DNA from: Gammaproteobacteria bacterium
GTDB taxonomy: Bacteria; Pseudomonadota; Gammaproteobacteria; JAADJB01
DNA length: 49,415 bases
Assembly: GCA_013151035.1 (NCBI GenBank)
Contig: JAADJB010000054.1
Coordinates: 1-49,415, forward strand
Direction of reading: 5' to 3'
Shown: positions 12,052-49,149 of the stretch, piece by piece
How positions within the stretch are numbered: position 1 is the stretch's first letter
Layout: every line of letters begins with the position of its first letter
Notes under the pieces: model-generated
The model's database searches: none
Told to the model about the DNA's origin: nothing
What the model saw: the letters and a program-made list of their open reading frames with translations, nothing else
Position numbers and translations under genes: made by a program

Positions 12052-12693
12052 TTATAGGGCTTCTTTCTGGCTACCTTTGGGGACGGGCACAATGGCAATC
12101 TCATCCCCATTCTCCAGGCGGGTGAATAATTCAGCAAAGTGTTTGTTGACGGTAATCTGTACCGCGTTATCGGCAAAAGGTTGTTCCCAGTCCCCACCGC
12201 GTTTGCGTAACAGGGCGAGTAGTTCACCGGCCGTCGCCTGCTCTGGTTTTAGCTCAATATCCTCTTCTTCTTTACGCGTGACCTTGATCAAAAGGCGCAT
12301 AAAATACAGTACCTTGATCTGTATCTTTGTGTCTTCATTTACACTGATAGTACGAGTCAGGCCATATTTTTCCAGTGCAGCCAGATAGGTCGCCCAGTTT
12401 ACTTCATAATTAAGCGCGAGCTCATACAGGCTACCCCAGGAAAAACCACTGGAGTCATAACCATCATCAAAGTAGATGCGCAGGGCATAGTTGCCTTGCA
12501 TCTCAATCTTCTCGATATTGACATCAACCTTATTGGCAACCGGCATCTCGTTGGTGACGACCTCGGCTGATTTGCCCTGGGTGCGTAGATATTCACAGGG
12601 TAGTTTGAAGTTTTCACCCGACTCATAGGTCAGTTCCAGTAATCGGGATTTTTGATGGAGCTTGATCTCCGTAGGCATTGCTGCTTTAGACAT
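12052..12693 (-). CDS. DUF971 / MoaD-ThiS-like fusion protein
   Basis: Residues 1-112 match DUF971, the N-terminal-like domain of gamma-butyrobetaine hydroxylase: PTEIKLHQKSRLLELTY, a Cys at 33, and a YALRIYFDDGYDSSGFSWG stretch. Residues 122-213 look like a ubiquitin-fold sulfur carrier of the MoaD/ThiS type, with IQIKVLYFMRLL, AGELLALLRKR and ENGDEIAIVPVPKGS. True carriers end in Gly-Gly, but here that position is G207-S208 followed by five residues, so normal adenylation and thiocarboxylation look impossible. It shares one base with yajD and follows a DsrE-like gene. The domain split is a by-eye reading; function unknown. Confidence 0.7.
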   Translation of the reverse strand: MSKAAMPTEIKLHQKSRLLELTYESGENFKLPCEYLRTQGKSAEVVTNEMPVANKVDVNIEKIEMQGNYALRIYFDDGYDSSGFSWGSLYELALNYEVNWATYLAALEKYGLTRTISVNEDTKIQIKVLYFMRLLIKVTRKEEEDIELKPEQATAGELLALLRKRGGDWEQPFADNAVQITVNKHFAELFTRLENGDEIAIVPVPKGSQKEAL

Positions 12694-13076
12694 TATTCAT
12701 TCTCTTTCTTGTTGAGCAGGTTGGCGAGATCTGCAAACGGATTTTGAGTGGCACCAGTGATTTTTTTCTCGCCCAGATTCCTATCCCCGGAGGCCTGATG
12801 ATCGAGCATGCGGGAGTGTTCATTGTCATGGCAATAGAGGCACAAAAGCTCCCAGTTACTACCATCCTCCGGATTGTTGGAGTGGTTATGGTCACGATGA
12901 TGCACAGTCAGTTCGCGTGCATTGGCGCGAGTGAACTCGCGCGAACAGCGACCACAGACCCAGGGATACATTCCCATCGCCTTTTCACGGTAGCCCTTGT
13001 TGCGTTCATCACGGTGCTGGTGACTATCCGCCACCATCTGATCGAGTTTGCTTGAGCTTGTCTTGTCGTTTGCCAT
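12693..13076 (-). CDS. yajD: YajD family HNH nuclease-like protein
   Basis: A 127-residue protein with two CxxC pairs (CGRC near 41 and CLYC near 78) around LTVHHRDHNHSNNPEDG and NWELLC. This is the zinc-stabilised HNH fold of YajD. E. coli YajD has the same size, and its substrate is unknown. The one-base overlap with the DUF971/MoaD-like gene and the 12-base gap after the DsrE-like gene mark these three as one operon. Confidence 0.9.
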   Translation of the reverse strand: MANDKTSSSKLDQMVADSHQHRDERNKGYREKAMGMYPWVCGRCSREFTRANARELTVHHRDHNHSNNPEDGSNWELLCLYCHDNEHSRMLDHQASGDRNLGEKKITGATQNPFADLANLLNKKENE

Positions 13077-13088
13077 AGTTACAGATTC

Positions 13089-13463
13089 TTAATAGCAGAA
13101 TACAACTACATCATCCTGCATACCCATGGTGGCATAACCGGCAGCACCCATTGGTCCGTCCAGCTCGGGGATGCAATCCTCCAGCTCAATATTGTGCATT
13201 TCCAGTGACGAGGGGCAGACATACATTTTGACATCGCATTCCTTGGCAATCTGTATCGCCTCATAGACACTAGGGCCACCCTCACGACTAAAGATCGTTT
13301 CTGCGACACCTTTTTTTAACAGGCGAGTGCCTTCCATAGTAAAGAGTATCGTGACCTCATCTGAATCCAGTGCGATAGCCGTCATTGCCTGATTAAACGG
13401 GGTTTCCAGGCGGGTTGGGGTGTCCGGGCCGCTGGTCAGCATAATTAACATCTTCTTGCCCAT
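13089..13463 (-). CDS. DsrE-like family protein
   Basis: A 124-residue protein of the DsrE/DsrF-like fold: MLIMLTSGPD at the first strand, then EVTILFTMEGTRLL, and C76-DVKMYVC83 followed by SSLEMHNI. The Cys after the third strand (C83) is at the place of the sulfur-carrying cysteine in DsrE/TusD relatives. C97 and C123 are extra. Members take part in sulfur transfer or are annotated as predicted peroxiredoxins. It is the first gene of the - strand operon; GGAGAAC lies just before its ATG. The upstream 300 bases hold two repeat hairpins. Confidence 0.8.
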   Translation of the reverse strand: MGKKMLIMLTSGPDTPTRLETPFNQAMTAIALDSDEVTILFTMEGTRLLKKGVAETIFSREGGPSVYEAIQIAKECDVKMYVCPSSLEMHNIELEDCIPELDGPMGAAGYATMGMQDDVVVFCY

Positions 13464-13740: not shown

Positions 13741-13971
13741 TCCAGGATGCAGGCCCTACTGGGTCAGGTGTTTACTTATTCACCCGGCTCTCATACACTG
13801 TCAATCATTGCCAAGGCATCTGATAGTAGTGCCTAGATGACACCGTTTAACCTGGATATAATCAGCTTCAATGATATTGCGCCTGTACCTGTCCCGTCTG
13901 CTGTATGGTTATTTGTCTTAGGGCTATTGGGCTTATTAACATATATGCGGCGCGCACCCTCTGCGTCGTGA
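13741..13971 (+). pseudogene. Broken PEP-CTERM-type protein, C-terminal remnant
   Basis: One frame reads FTYSPGSHTLSIIAKASD, then SSA, an amber TAG (13834-13836), then TPFNLDIISFNDIAP and the sorting tail VPVPSAVWLFVLGLLG ending in MRR. The tail has the VPxPxAxWL motif, hydrophobic helix and basic end of exosortase-sorted proteins. The TAG sits where TGG (Trp) would read through. No signal peptide or intact N-terminus is seen. Its last 36 bases overlap, tail to tail, the end of the intact PEP-CTERM gene on the other strand. Confidence 0.65.
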
Positions 13972-14559
13972 TAAACCAAACAGTGTTATCAGGCCACTAC
14001 CCAATAACCAGACGGCACCCGGTACTGGCACAGTAGAAACCAGCTGCACATCATCAAGCATCATACCTAGATTATCTACCCCCTGATGGGTGAAAGTAAT
14101 GCCTGTCGATGTTGGGCTGTTCACCGTGATAATAAAGGAAAAAAGCTCGTACGGGTCAAATCCATTTTTTGAAATTTGTGTGCTAAATAAACTGCTCATG
14201 GAGACATCAACTACATCCAGGCTTGAATTACGCTGATTCCCTGAAAGTGCAAAAGAAAGTTCGTAAGTGCCTGGAGACAAGTTGAATGTCTGCTTAGTGG
14301 AAAAGGTGCCTGCCTGGTTTGATGAGCCATCCAGGTCAACACAACGTCCCGTGTTGCCAACACAGGATAGACTATAACTACCTTGATTAATAAGATCGAC
14401 TGATCCGCTGGTGATGTCCCAGTTATTGAAGGAGCTATAGTTTAAACCATAACCAGATTCACCTTCGAAGCCATCACTGAATATCACAGTTGCTGAAAAA
14501 CTGCTGGTTGAGACCATACATAGTAGTGTGCCGAATAGTCTTAAAAAATATTTGTTCAT
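13936..14559 (-). CDS. PEP-CTERM-type exported protein
   Basis: A 207-residue protein. Residues 1-23 are a signal peptide ending SSFSA. The mature part is Ser/Asn/Gly-rich and probably all beta, starting with VIFSDGFEGESGYGLN and with a CVGNTGRC disulfide candidate near 66-73. It looks like a lectin- or DUF642-like jelly roll. The tail VPVPGAVWLLGSGLITLFG plus SRRR is a PEP-CTERM/exosortase signal. The last residues (GCAPHIC) come from DNA that also encodes the end of the opposing remnant, so the exact end may be altered. GGAGAAAG lies 4 bases before ATG. No exosortase gene is in the window. Confidence 0.8.
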   Translation of the reverse strand: MNKYFLRLFGTLLCMVSTSSFSATVIFSDGFEGESGYGLNYSSFNNWDITSGSVDLINQGSYSLSCVGNTGRCVDLDGSSNQAGTFSTKQTFNLSPGTYELSFALSGNQRNSSLDVVDVSMSSLFSTQISKNGFDPYELFSFIITVNSPTSTGITFTHQGVDNLGMMLDDVQLVSTVPVPGAVWLLGSGLITLFGLSRRRGCAPHIC

Positions 14560-29366: not shown

Positions 29367-29834
29367 TTATCTTATGCGGGAATCGTATTTGAATGTCGTG
29401 ATATTGGATGTCTCTATTTCTTTAAAATCTGGATGTAGTGGGTTGAGCAAATAATTATGTTCACTTTCAATCACTACGCTGGGAATTTGCAGTATTAGGG
29501 ATTCTTGATTGCTCAACCAGTCATTGCCAATGATTTGTGTTGTTGGAGTCATTGAGGGTTGTGTCCAGTCATCGGGTAGATCATCTGGATCTATAAGAAT
29601 GATGTGCTCATCATTAAACGTGACTTCTATTTTCGAAAAGCAATTCAATACTGAAATAGAATCCAGATAAACCAGGAGCTCCAGCGATGCGGTCGCAAGA
29701 TTACCGCCAAGATAGACAACGCGGTGACCCTTGGTGTTCCAGCGTCCACCATGCAAAAATGCCCCTTCGCCGGATAGCATTTCCTGGGGGCTTTTTGCAA
29801 ACTCAGGGTCGGCTACACGCCATCCAGTCGGCAT
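29367..29834 (-). CDS. RES domain toxin
   Basis: A 155-residue RES domain protein. R6 in GWRVAD, GGRWNTKGHRVVYLG (29-43), the conserved E in ASLELLVYL, and SEHNYLLNPLHPDF near the end are the expected family residues. RES toxins degrade NAD(P)+ and stop growth when unbound. The gene starts at the stop codon of its antitoxin with a one-base overlap, the usual antitoxin-first order. The key residues look complete, so activity is plausible. Confidence 0.92.
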   Translation of the reverse strand: MPTGWRVADPEFAKSPQEMLSGEGAFLHGGRWNTKGHRVVYLGGNLATASLELLVYLDSISVLNCFSKIEVTFNDEHIILIDPDDLPDDWTQPSMTPTTQIIGNDWLSNQESLILQIPSVVIESEHNYLLNPLHPDFKEIETSNITTFKYDSRIR

Positions 29835-30427
29835 TAACTAAAGACACCGTGTCGAATACGACCGATTAGGTCTTCAACCTCACGAGCACCGATTTCTGTT
29901 ATGGCGTGCTGCAATGGTGTTTCACCGCCAAAGATTTCCATGGGCTTTTTGAACCAGCTAGCGGCACGATTAGAATCTTTTTGCATCATCTCAGTGGCTT
30001 TGGTCATGAGTTCGGCATATCGATAAACGCGATCAGACTCGTTTGGCAACAACTTACCCTTATTCAGCCGGCGCCTTAATGTTGATTGAGGAATACCCAT
30101 TAGTTTGTACCCTTCGCTCATCGGGATATCATAGGCTTTTGTTACCATTTCAAATGCGGTGGCTTCAATCCCGTCTTTGATTCGGTTGATGAGAACTTCA
30201 TGAATGAAGCTGTTACGTTCAGCACGGCGTTTTAGTTTACCAATAGTTCTAATATCTTTGGTTCGAAAGATAACGCGCCCTTTTAATGTTTCTGTTATTG
30301 GGATGAGGTCGTCATTATCCTCAGCTTGTTGAAGTAATGCATGTATATCTTTTTTCTGCATGCGTGAGGGTATGGGTGTTTTCTGCTTAGTTGTCTTTGT
30401 GGTTATATGGTTTTTTTCAGTAGTCAT
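29834..30427 (-). CDS. Xre/MbcA/ParS-type antitoxin
   Basis: A 197-residue protein. The C-terminal DUF2384 region ends EVEDLIGRIRHGVFS, the segment that plugs the toxin. A helix-turn-helix lies near 110-130 (MGIPQSTLRRRLNKG). The first roughly 75 residues are basic and low-complexity, longer than in typical antitoxins (about 150 residues), and could contact DNA. It binds and silences the RES toxin and probably represses its own promoter upstream of 30427. Confidence 0.9.
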   Translation of the reverse strand: MTTEKNHITTKTTKQKTPIPSRMQKKDIHALLQQAEDNDDLIPITETLKGRVIFRTKDIRTIGKLKRRAERNSFIHEVLINRIKDGIEATAFEMVTKAYDIPMSEGYKLMGIPQSTLRRRLNKGKLLPNESDRVYRYAELMTKATEMMQKDSNRAASWFKKPMEIFGGETPLQHAITEIGAREVEDLIGRIRHGVFS

Positions 30428-42835: not shown

Positions 42836-43272
42836 ATGTTAAAAAAGCATAAAATCACATGGCTGATCATCGCTGTTGCAGCCATTGGGTTTTTGGCTTG
42901 GCGCATGATCAGGTCGATGAATATCTTTGTCGTCTCGGAGGCGTTTGAGATGCCGGTTGATACCACCGAGATACCGGCATTGTTGAATACCTTGAGTGCC
43001 AAAGAATGTGCGGCATGCCATCAGGAATTTTATGATGAGTGGTCGACTACCATGCATAGTCAGGCATGGACAGATCCTTGGCCCCTACGGTGATACCCAG
43101 GCAACCACGTAACTATTCTTTTGAATATTCTAGCAAGGGTAAGGTTAGACCGACAGCCGTTGAAGTGACTGTGCGTTATCATCTGATGGATATAAGGCGC
43201 CACGAACGCATCAAGCACAAGAACGTGGTGCCTATATCCTATGAGGTTTATCGTGAGCGTGTGGCTATTTAG
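42836..43272 (+). pseudogene. Internally deleted multihaem cytochrome c-like gene
   Basis: The first part encodes a membrane anchor (about residues 8-25) and the first haem motif in LSAKECAACHQEFYDEWSTT and MHSQAW, then stops at 43091-43093. From about 43066 another frame gives a C-terminal part, RNYSFEYSSKG and VEVTVRYHLMDI with PISYEVYRERVAI. Related cytochromes carry several more haem sites between these two parts. A deletion with frameshift near 43075-43095 explains this. The stop overlaps the end of the opposing PEP-CTERM gene. Confidence 0.65.
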
Positions 43273-43964
43273 CTTTTATCCTTACGACGCGCGACAGCAA
43301 CCAGACCTAAAAGACCTGAACCAAACAACCAGGCTGCTGCAGGAATGGGCACTACGGATGCGTTAATGGTGTCAATCCTGAAACTATCGGTATCACCATC
43401 GGCCCAAATCAATATCTGTGTGCCGGCTACGTTGTTAAATGTATATTCATCAAACTGTCCGGGTACACCGGTGGCCAGTGGTGAAATATCATTGGCATTG
43501 AAGTCTGTAAGGATATTGACCCCATCGACTGTCAGATTAAAATCATCGCCAGCTGATGATGTGAAGGAGTCAAAATTGATGTAATTCAGACTGATGACCT
43601 GATCAAATGTAAATAACAAGCCTTCATCAAGATCAGTGCTACTATTGCCTCCATCCATATTAGTTCCATCGCTAGGGTCGCTAACGACACCTAAATTACC
43701 CGATGTTGAGCTGCTGACGTAGATACCATTACTACCTGTTAATGCGGTTGAAAGAACCACATCACCATTGGTATCAAGAGTAATCGTGTATGCTTGTACA
43801 TTAACGTTTATGCCACCTGATGTCATACTGACACTATCGTTGATACTGCCACCAGTGACACCCAGATTGGTATAATTAAAGTTAAAGACCGCAGCAGAAG
43901 CGGTATTTATTACCAATACGGGTAATAGACTTATCAGGCTTTTCATTATCGTTTTTTTATTCAT
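43269..43964 (-). CDS. PEP-CTERM-type exported protein
   Basis: A 231-residue protein: signal peptide (about 1-24, ending TASA), then a Gly/Ser/Asn/Asp-rich all-beta body (FNFNYTNLGVTGGSINDSV, later NYINFDSFTSSAGDDFNL). The C-terminal sorting signal is VPIPAAAWLFGSGLLGLV with an ARRK end. An exosortase elsewhere would cleave the tail. GAGGAAG lies 7 bases before the ATG. It shares the tail type, but not the body, with the protein at 13936-14559. Confidence 0.82.
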   Translation of the reverse strand: MNKKTIMKSLISLLPVLVINTASAAVFNFNYTNLGVTGGSINDSVSMTSGGINVNVQAYTITLDTNGDVVLSTALTGSNGIYVSSSTSGNLGVVSDPSDGTNMDGGNSSTDLDEGLLFTFDQVISLNYINFDSFTSSAGDDFNLTVDGVNILTDFNANDISPLATGVPGQFDEYTFNNVAGTQILIWADGDTDSFRIDTINASVVPIPAAAWLFGSGLLGLVAVARRKDKS

Positions 43965-48745: not shown

Positions 48746-48813
48746 ATTGACAACAAGGAATAATAACTGATAGAATTAGTCAGGTATTATTTGAAATTAG
48801 ATAGGTGATGGAA

Positions 48814-49149
48814 ATGGAAGTTGAAGTAAATGGTAAAACCATTGAATTAAGCGAAGCCGGTTGGTTATTAAACCTGGATGAGTGGAATGAAGATCTTGCG
48901 GTTGAGGTTGCAAAGAACGAGAATGTGCCTGAGATGACGGATGAGCACTGGGATATCGTGAATACAGCCCGCGAGTTATTTGTTGAAAATGGCGTTGTCT
49001 CTGAGCCACGTGCCTTTAGCAAGATTATGAAGGGTAAATTTGGCAAGGATCGTAGTAGTCAGAAATATATCTATTCCCTGTTTCCTACGGGCCTGATCAA
49101 GTGTGCTAACAAGATTGCCGGTTTACCGCGTCCGAAGGGGTGTAGTTAA
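48814..49149 (+). CDS. TusE/DsrC family sulfur relay-like protein
   Basis: A 111-residue protein of DsrC/TusE type: MEVEVNGKTIELSEAGWLLN, then EDLAVEVAKNENV, EHWDIVNTAREL and YLYRLFP-like KYIYSLFPTG. The tail ends LPRPKGCS, so the penultimate Cys that carries sulfur is present. DsrC has a second Cys in ACK, 10 residues before it. Here that place is Asn, and a Cys appears two positions earlier (KCANKIAGLP). It is therefore not a canonical DsrC and lies nearer TusE. ATG 48814 is chosen for its AGGTG at 6 bases. A terminator follows. Confidence 0.88.
   Translation: MEVEVNGKTIELSEAGWLLNLDEWNEDLAVEVAKNENVPEMTDEHWDIVNTARELFVENGVVSEPRAFSKIMKGKFGKDRSSQKYIYSLFPTGLIKCANKIAGLPRPKGCS

Follow-up and report, generated by a model that had tools for sequence, protein, structure and literature searches.

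At positions 12052-13463 of the window (the whole 49,415-nucleotide stretch of DNA that was analyzed, contig C54 of a 2.4-Mb, 98% complete gammaproteobacterial assembly), three genes are packed head to tail on the minus strand, and the last of them encodes a protein in which a DUF971 domain is joined to a MoaD-like domain without a terminal Gly-Gly. What might such a protein do, if it lacks the end by which MoaD carries sulfur, and do its neighbors help to explain it? An earlier note on this DNA had proposed that the three genes form an undescribed sulfur- or cofactor-handling module and that the carrier-like domain is either a scaffold or a carrier in need of trimming. We find that the fusion is a real, undescribed protein family. 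It is probably an uncharacterized docking protein of the Dsr/Apr route rather than a sulfur carrier.

The three-gene cluster is a local arrangement

The cluster begins with a DsrE-family gene (13089-13463; 124 aa; PF02635, 1.2e-10), continues with a YajD-type HNH gene (12693-13076; 127 aa; 2.1e-50 to the NCBIfam equivalog NF008448), and ends with the fusion (12052-12693; 213 aa; an open reading frame matching both PF06155 and PF02597). Twelve bases separate the DsrE-like gene from that for YajD, and one base is common to the YajD stop codon and the fusion start codon (TAATG); the tight packing that the earlier note described is therefore real. The cysteine that it singled out in the DsrE-like protein, Cys83, is invariant in 30/30 aligned homologs.

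Packing on one strand, the one-base overlap, and the invariant Cys83 would all suit a module in which the DsrE-like protein, YajD, and the fusion handle sulfur or a cofactor together. However, a survey of gene neighborhoods of the fusion across genomes did not turn up the trio again. No DsrE, YajD, LOG-type, or other neighbor from the window was seen within about 1.5 to 5 kb of the 40-odd other fusion genes examined. Conversely, neither YajD nor the fusion adjoins the DsrE-like gene at the 29 other such loci examined, and no second instance of DsrE paired with YajD was found. Among the genomes examined, only this one has YajD as the upstream neighbor of the fusion. Since the trio was not found elsewhere, we regard the operon as local and reject it as a conserved module; the survey has already largely refuted this proposal, which we now consider very improbable. 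DsrE and YajD would then be chance neighbors of the fusion in this genome.

Inspection of the window by eye also picked out a pair that looks like a RES-domain toxin with an Xre/ParS-type antitoxin (29367-30427), as well as two secreted proteins (13936-14559 and 43269-43964) with PEP-CTERM-like C-terminal sorting signals, VPVPGAVWLLGSG and VPIPAAAWLFGSG.

Both halves of the fusion match solved structures

The N-terminal half, approximately residues 7 to 112 (12358..12675, minus strand), is a DUF971 (GBBH-like_N) domain; PF06155 matches residues 10 to 90 at 2.7e-20, above its curated cutoff and over profile positions 1 to 85 of 85. It is followed by a variable linker, approximately residues 113 to 123 (12325..12357, minus strand), which is gapped in the alignment and without clear constraint by dN/dS, and then by the MoaD-like beta-grasp domain without Gly-Gly, approximately residues 124 to 203 (12085..12324, minus strand). 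The Pfam ThiS family matches residues 142 to 207 at 1.6e-8, above its curated cutoff, while the moaD profile TIGR01682 gives 1.2e-7 and 32.4 bits, below its curated cutoff of 66.15. PF06155 and PF02597 are both present in all 31 aligned fusion members.

An AlphaFold2 model of the full protein, built from the alignment of these 31 members, has a mean pLDDT of 86, with low confidence at residues 210 to 213. When the model was compared with the PDB, its N-terminal half matched the DUF971 structures 2l6p, 2l6n, and 3luu and also the N-terminal domain of gamma-butyrobetaine hydroxylase. For the C-terminal half, the matches were to MoaD, with TM-scores on the target of 0.80 for 1fm0_D, 0.83 for 1jwb_D (from the MoeB-MoaD complex), and 0.86 for 6jbz, and also to SAMP1 and Urm1. 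The profile search of the fusion agrees with these structural matches. The resemblance of residues 115 to 213 to beta-grasp carriers, as suspected in the earlier note, is thus confirmed, with profiles, fold, and tree (see below) identifying residues 124 to 207 as a true MoaD-type domain.

At 1592-2509, the window also encodes a protein that by eye resembles TauD/gamma-butyrobetaine-hydroxylase-type dioxygenases, enzymes that have a DUF971-related domain at their N terminus.

The host genome has its own standalone versions of these domains. Its canonical MoaD (G000:C24) ends in FFPPVTGG and is encoded beside moaE and moaC, its ThiS ends in GGG and is encoded next to a thiG-like gene, and its standalone DUF971 gene lies between hslU and ubiE (the names moaE, moaC, thiG, hslU, and ubiE were assigned by inspecting the translations by eye).

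Gly-Gly is absent throughout the family

The fusion encoded in the window ends in VPVPKGSQKEAL, without Gly-Gly. Its divergent tail, VPKGSQKEAL (residues 204 to 213; 12055..12084, minus strand), has G207-S208 at the place of the MoaD Gly-Gly, followed by five residues (QKEAL), exactly as first read. To see the family as a whole, we gathered 48 distinct fusion proteins, all from gammaproteobacteria, by searching two sets of genomes from the class (185 and 369) as well as 84,980 species; four closer sequences were used for the last scan, a 10-sequence C-terminal alignment being too diverse. All 48 lack Gly-Gly both at the very end and within the rest of the tail, the single flagged GG (L120) lying in an internal loop before DE. 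Absence is therefore a property of the family (48/48) and not a matter of chance, and a local mutation of Gly-Gly is rejected. Among the standalone MoaD and ThiS proteins of the same genomes, a Gly-Gly end was found in 26 of 26 readable proteins, 23 of them picked automatically and three (L145, L156, and L159) read from the output, with five unresolved loci left out.

The C-terminal Gly-Gly is needed for MoaD thiocarboxylate chemistry (PMC12355090), and therefore the fusion domain, judged by its sequence, can hardly be a sulfur carrier. The impression that standard thiocarboxylate chemistry looks impossible here is supported by the family-wide loss, and we imagine that the fusion would escape adenylation and thiocarboxylation altogether.

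What remains at the C terminus varies in both length and sequence from lineage to lineage, with tails such as PKAK, P.SKDI, and PNSPNPPPPPK, among others. Trimmed carriers are known in general, and a sulfur carrier that is trimmed, or that uses some other C-terminal chemistry, would be in keeping with the true MoaD fold and the conserved GDE..P end. However, trimming would expose no Gly-Gly in any of the 48 tails, and the tails themselves differ between lineages. A trimmed carrier is therefore rejected, and a carrier of either sort has very little chance of being correct. The scaffold is the likelier of the two readings offered in the earlier note.

A MoaD paralog that is maintained by selection

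In a tree with the MoaD and ThiS proteins of the same genomes, the MoaD-like domains of the fusions form one clade (bootstrap 98, SH-aLRT 91), sister to MoaD and split from ThiS with support of 100/100. The DUF971 halves are effectively one clade among standalone DUF971 proteins (support 89), the sole apparent exception, L065, being a broken copy of the fusion. The simplest history would be that the two domains fused once and that Gly-Gly was lost afterward.

Residue columns were compared in E. coli MoaD numbering. Relative to MoaD, the fusions have gained A54T (48/48), Q57K/R (48/48), and L59F (47/48), and in the family signature TVN[KR]xF the Thr and the Lys/Arg are invariant (48/48) and the Phe is nearly so (47/48). 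The signature in the window reads TVNKHFAE (residues 181 to 188; 12130..12153, minus strand). Column counts also mark a conserved GDE, common to the fusion and canonical MoaD (residues 196 to 198; 12100..12108, minus strand). Of the MoaD positions, F7, D70, and E71 are retained in all 48 fusions and P76 in 46 of them; the F75 position has become Val or Ile in 43 of 48.

Values of dN/dS are unreliable for distant pairs (saturation); in seven close pairs, dN/dS is 0 to 0.19 for the MoaD-like domain and similar for the DUF971 half. Given its low dN/dS and new invariant residues, the domain is maintained under purifying selection, with a new conserved site replacing the catalytic tail. Loss of that tail is what one would expect of a domain decaying without function. 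Neutral decay is nonetheless rejected, already refuted by the dN/dS values and the gained invariant residues; the confidently predicted fold and a spread over 14 families also speak against it, leaving it next to no probability.

In the MoaD-MoaE and MoaD-MoeB structures, F7, L59, and F75 make up the face by which MoaD docks to MoaE and MoeB. These anchors stay hydrophobic in the fusions (F7 in 48/48, Phe for L59 in 47/48, Val/Ile for F75 in 43/48), and one can envision a decoy that binds MoeB and/or MoaE, competes with MoaD for want of Gly-Gly, and thereby holds down the synthesis of molybdenum cofactor, DUF971 being its sensor or effector. ThiS/MoaD-family proteins are indeed present in 22/22 carriers of the fusion, and in G062 and G299, which are related to each other, the gene immediately upstream, read in the same direction as the fusion, encodes a MoeB/ThiF-family E1 (L121 and L123). 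However, this adjacency occurs in one family only, the F75 position is weakened, and restriction of the fusion to Dsr/Apr genomes (see below) would go unexplained, because molybdenum cofactor is also made outside the Dsr/Apr bacteria. Such a decoy seems to us unlikely, if still worth considering.

The fusion is confined to genomes with dsrA

Named carriers of the fusion are Sedimenticola, "Candidatus Thiodiazotropha," Thiolapillus, Chromatiaceae, and lucinid clam symbionts, joined by many further gammaproteobacterial assemblies. In the 185-genome sample, the fusion was found in 10 genomes, each from a different family. Every one of them has dsrA above the cutoff, compared to 60/185 genomes overall (hypergeometric p 7e-6), and 12/12 further carriers from the larger sample have it as well, for a total of 22/22; aprA is present in 21 of these 22, compared to a background of 53/185 (p 1.9e-6 for the ten), both tests treating genomes as independent, which kinship violates, a problem that ten carriers from ten families reduce but do not remove. 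The fusion is thus confined to genomes with dsrA, nearly always accompanied by aprA. Many Dsr/Apr genomes do without the fusion, however, and it is therefore accessory; several families (among them f2, f43, f65, f94, f117, f137, and f141) hold members both with and without it. A phylum-level sample of 397 genomes, drawn evenly and including many genomes of the same class, yielded no further carriers.

The link to sulfur drawn in the earlier note therefore stands by way of genome content (dsrA and aprA) and of aprBA and sat neighbors in some lineages, but not by way of DsrE and YajD.

The window itself ends with a DsrC-family protein (48805-49149; Pfam DsrC, 3.1e-34), which fits a Dsr-type sulfur oxidizer.

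Neighbors of the fusion differ between lineages

No neighbor of the fusion is universal across the lineages examined, and most fusion loci have no dsr or apr gene close by. In some lineages the fusion does adjoin aprBA, as in G136 (L003), L032, L033, and L035 (beside aprB). In G249, which falls elsewhere in the tree, it is flanked by sat (ATP sulfurylase) and aprBA and is read from the opposite strand (L110), so that the fusion is found beside aprBA in at least two separate arrangements. HppA is encoded upstream of the fusion in the G136-type group, and an HdrA/QmoA-like gene lies about 6 kb from it in G125. Directly downstream of the fusion at L036:5265-5591 and at about 14 other loci (L037 to L048, L052, L065, and L104) is a gene for a 110-aa protein that contains a CNC motif and matches no Pfam family, possibly a lineage-specific partner of the fusion in lucinid-symbiont-type genomes. 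Further lineage-specific neighbors are a GreA/B-type factor, a YheT-like hydrolase, aspS, and yebC. Among the loci examined, moaA, moaC, or moaE was seen beside the fusion neither by eye nor as a shared neighbor cluster.

AprB and DsrAB are Fe-S proteins, and aprBA adjoins the fusion in several lineages; in G042, the fusion is oriented divergently to a gene for an A-type Fe-S assembly protein. These observations would be consistent with an Fe-S maturation factor whose MoaD-like domain brings in a client (AprB or DsrAB, for instance) and whose DUF971 works as it does in HCF101-type scaffolds. Most of what is known of DUF971 comes from the Fe-S scaffold HCF101, to which it is fused at the C terminus; its role there is unknown, and a CxCxxC motif has been noted (PMC7980591). 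That motif, thought to bind metal, is found in none of the aligned fusion members at the HCF101-type site, which in the window reads YLRTQGKSAEV, and the only cysteine of the fusion (C33) is not invariant. Since the Fe-S neighbor is also limited to one lineage, we consider a role in Fe-S maturation quite unlikely.

Discussion

The explanation that we favor, and to which we would give an even chance, is that the fusion is an accessory protein of the Dsr/Apr route, with its C-terminal MoaD paralog turned into a non-covalent docking domain and DUF971 serving as a second module. We imagine that the C-terminal half lost Gly-Gly once and took on protein docking in its place, whereas the N-terminal half, which would have arisen by duplication of the standalone DUF971 whose gene adjoins ubiE and hslVU, may be a second interaction module or a cofactor-handling one. 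Docking is suggested by the retention of fold and hydrophobic core, by the new invariant signature, and by the fused second domain; the partner would be bound through the retained MoaD face together with the new TVN[KR]xFAE signature. The strict link to Dsr/Apr and the adjacency to aprBA and sat in two arrangements point to a place in sulfur oxidation, most plausibly in its sulfite/APS branch. The partner there might be AprBA, its electron partners, or the maturation of their Fe-S or molybdenum cofactors. A more specific proposal, that MoaD has become a subunit dedicated to non-covalent docking, which would serve to mature, couple, or regulate APS reductase or the sulfite branch, is put forward tentatively.

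How does the fusion compare to known systems? Like MoaD, to which it is a sister clade, it has the beta-grasp fold (1fm0_D) and keeps F7, N56, and the GDE..P end. Unlike MoaD, it lacks Gly-Gly in every member, has gained TVN[KR]xF, and always places the domain behind DUF971; it also has no moa linkage, with only moeB nearby, in two genomes. Its N-terminal half is a close paralog of standalone DUF971/GBBH-like_N proteins (2l6p, 2l6n, and 3luu), but those stop near residue 120 and have a much wider distribution. HCF101, which is linked to Fe-S assembly, likewise carries DUF971 in a multidomain protein (PMC7980591), but the fusion has no P-loop NTPase, no FSCA domain, and no CxCxxC in DUF971. A systematic survey of prokaryotic ubiquitin-like domains describes other ThiS/MoaD fusions, including one to sulfite reductase, and makes no mention of DUF971 as a ThiS/MoaD partner (PMC1779556). 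Those sulfur metabolism fusions, together with RnfH, TmoB, and TGS, provide a precedent for ThiS/MoaD-type domains entering sulfur metabolism and other roles (PMC1779556, PMC1949818). No mention of a DUF971-MoaD protein was found in the open literature. Some of the ThiS/MoaD fusions or of the RnfH, TmoB, and TGS families presumably also lack Gly-Gly.

The fusion provides a clean bacterial case of a MoaD-family carrier fold kept under selection after loss of the tail that defines its chemistry, in genomes whose standalone MoaD and ThiS still have theirs intact. Its confinement to Dsr/Apr genomes, many of them from animal symbionts or from vent or sediment lineages, makes it a candidate for a missing accessory protein of a globally important pathway.
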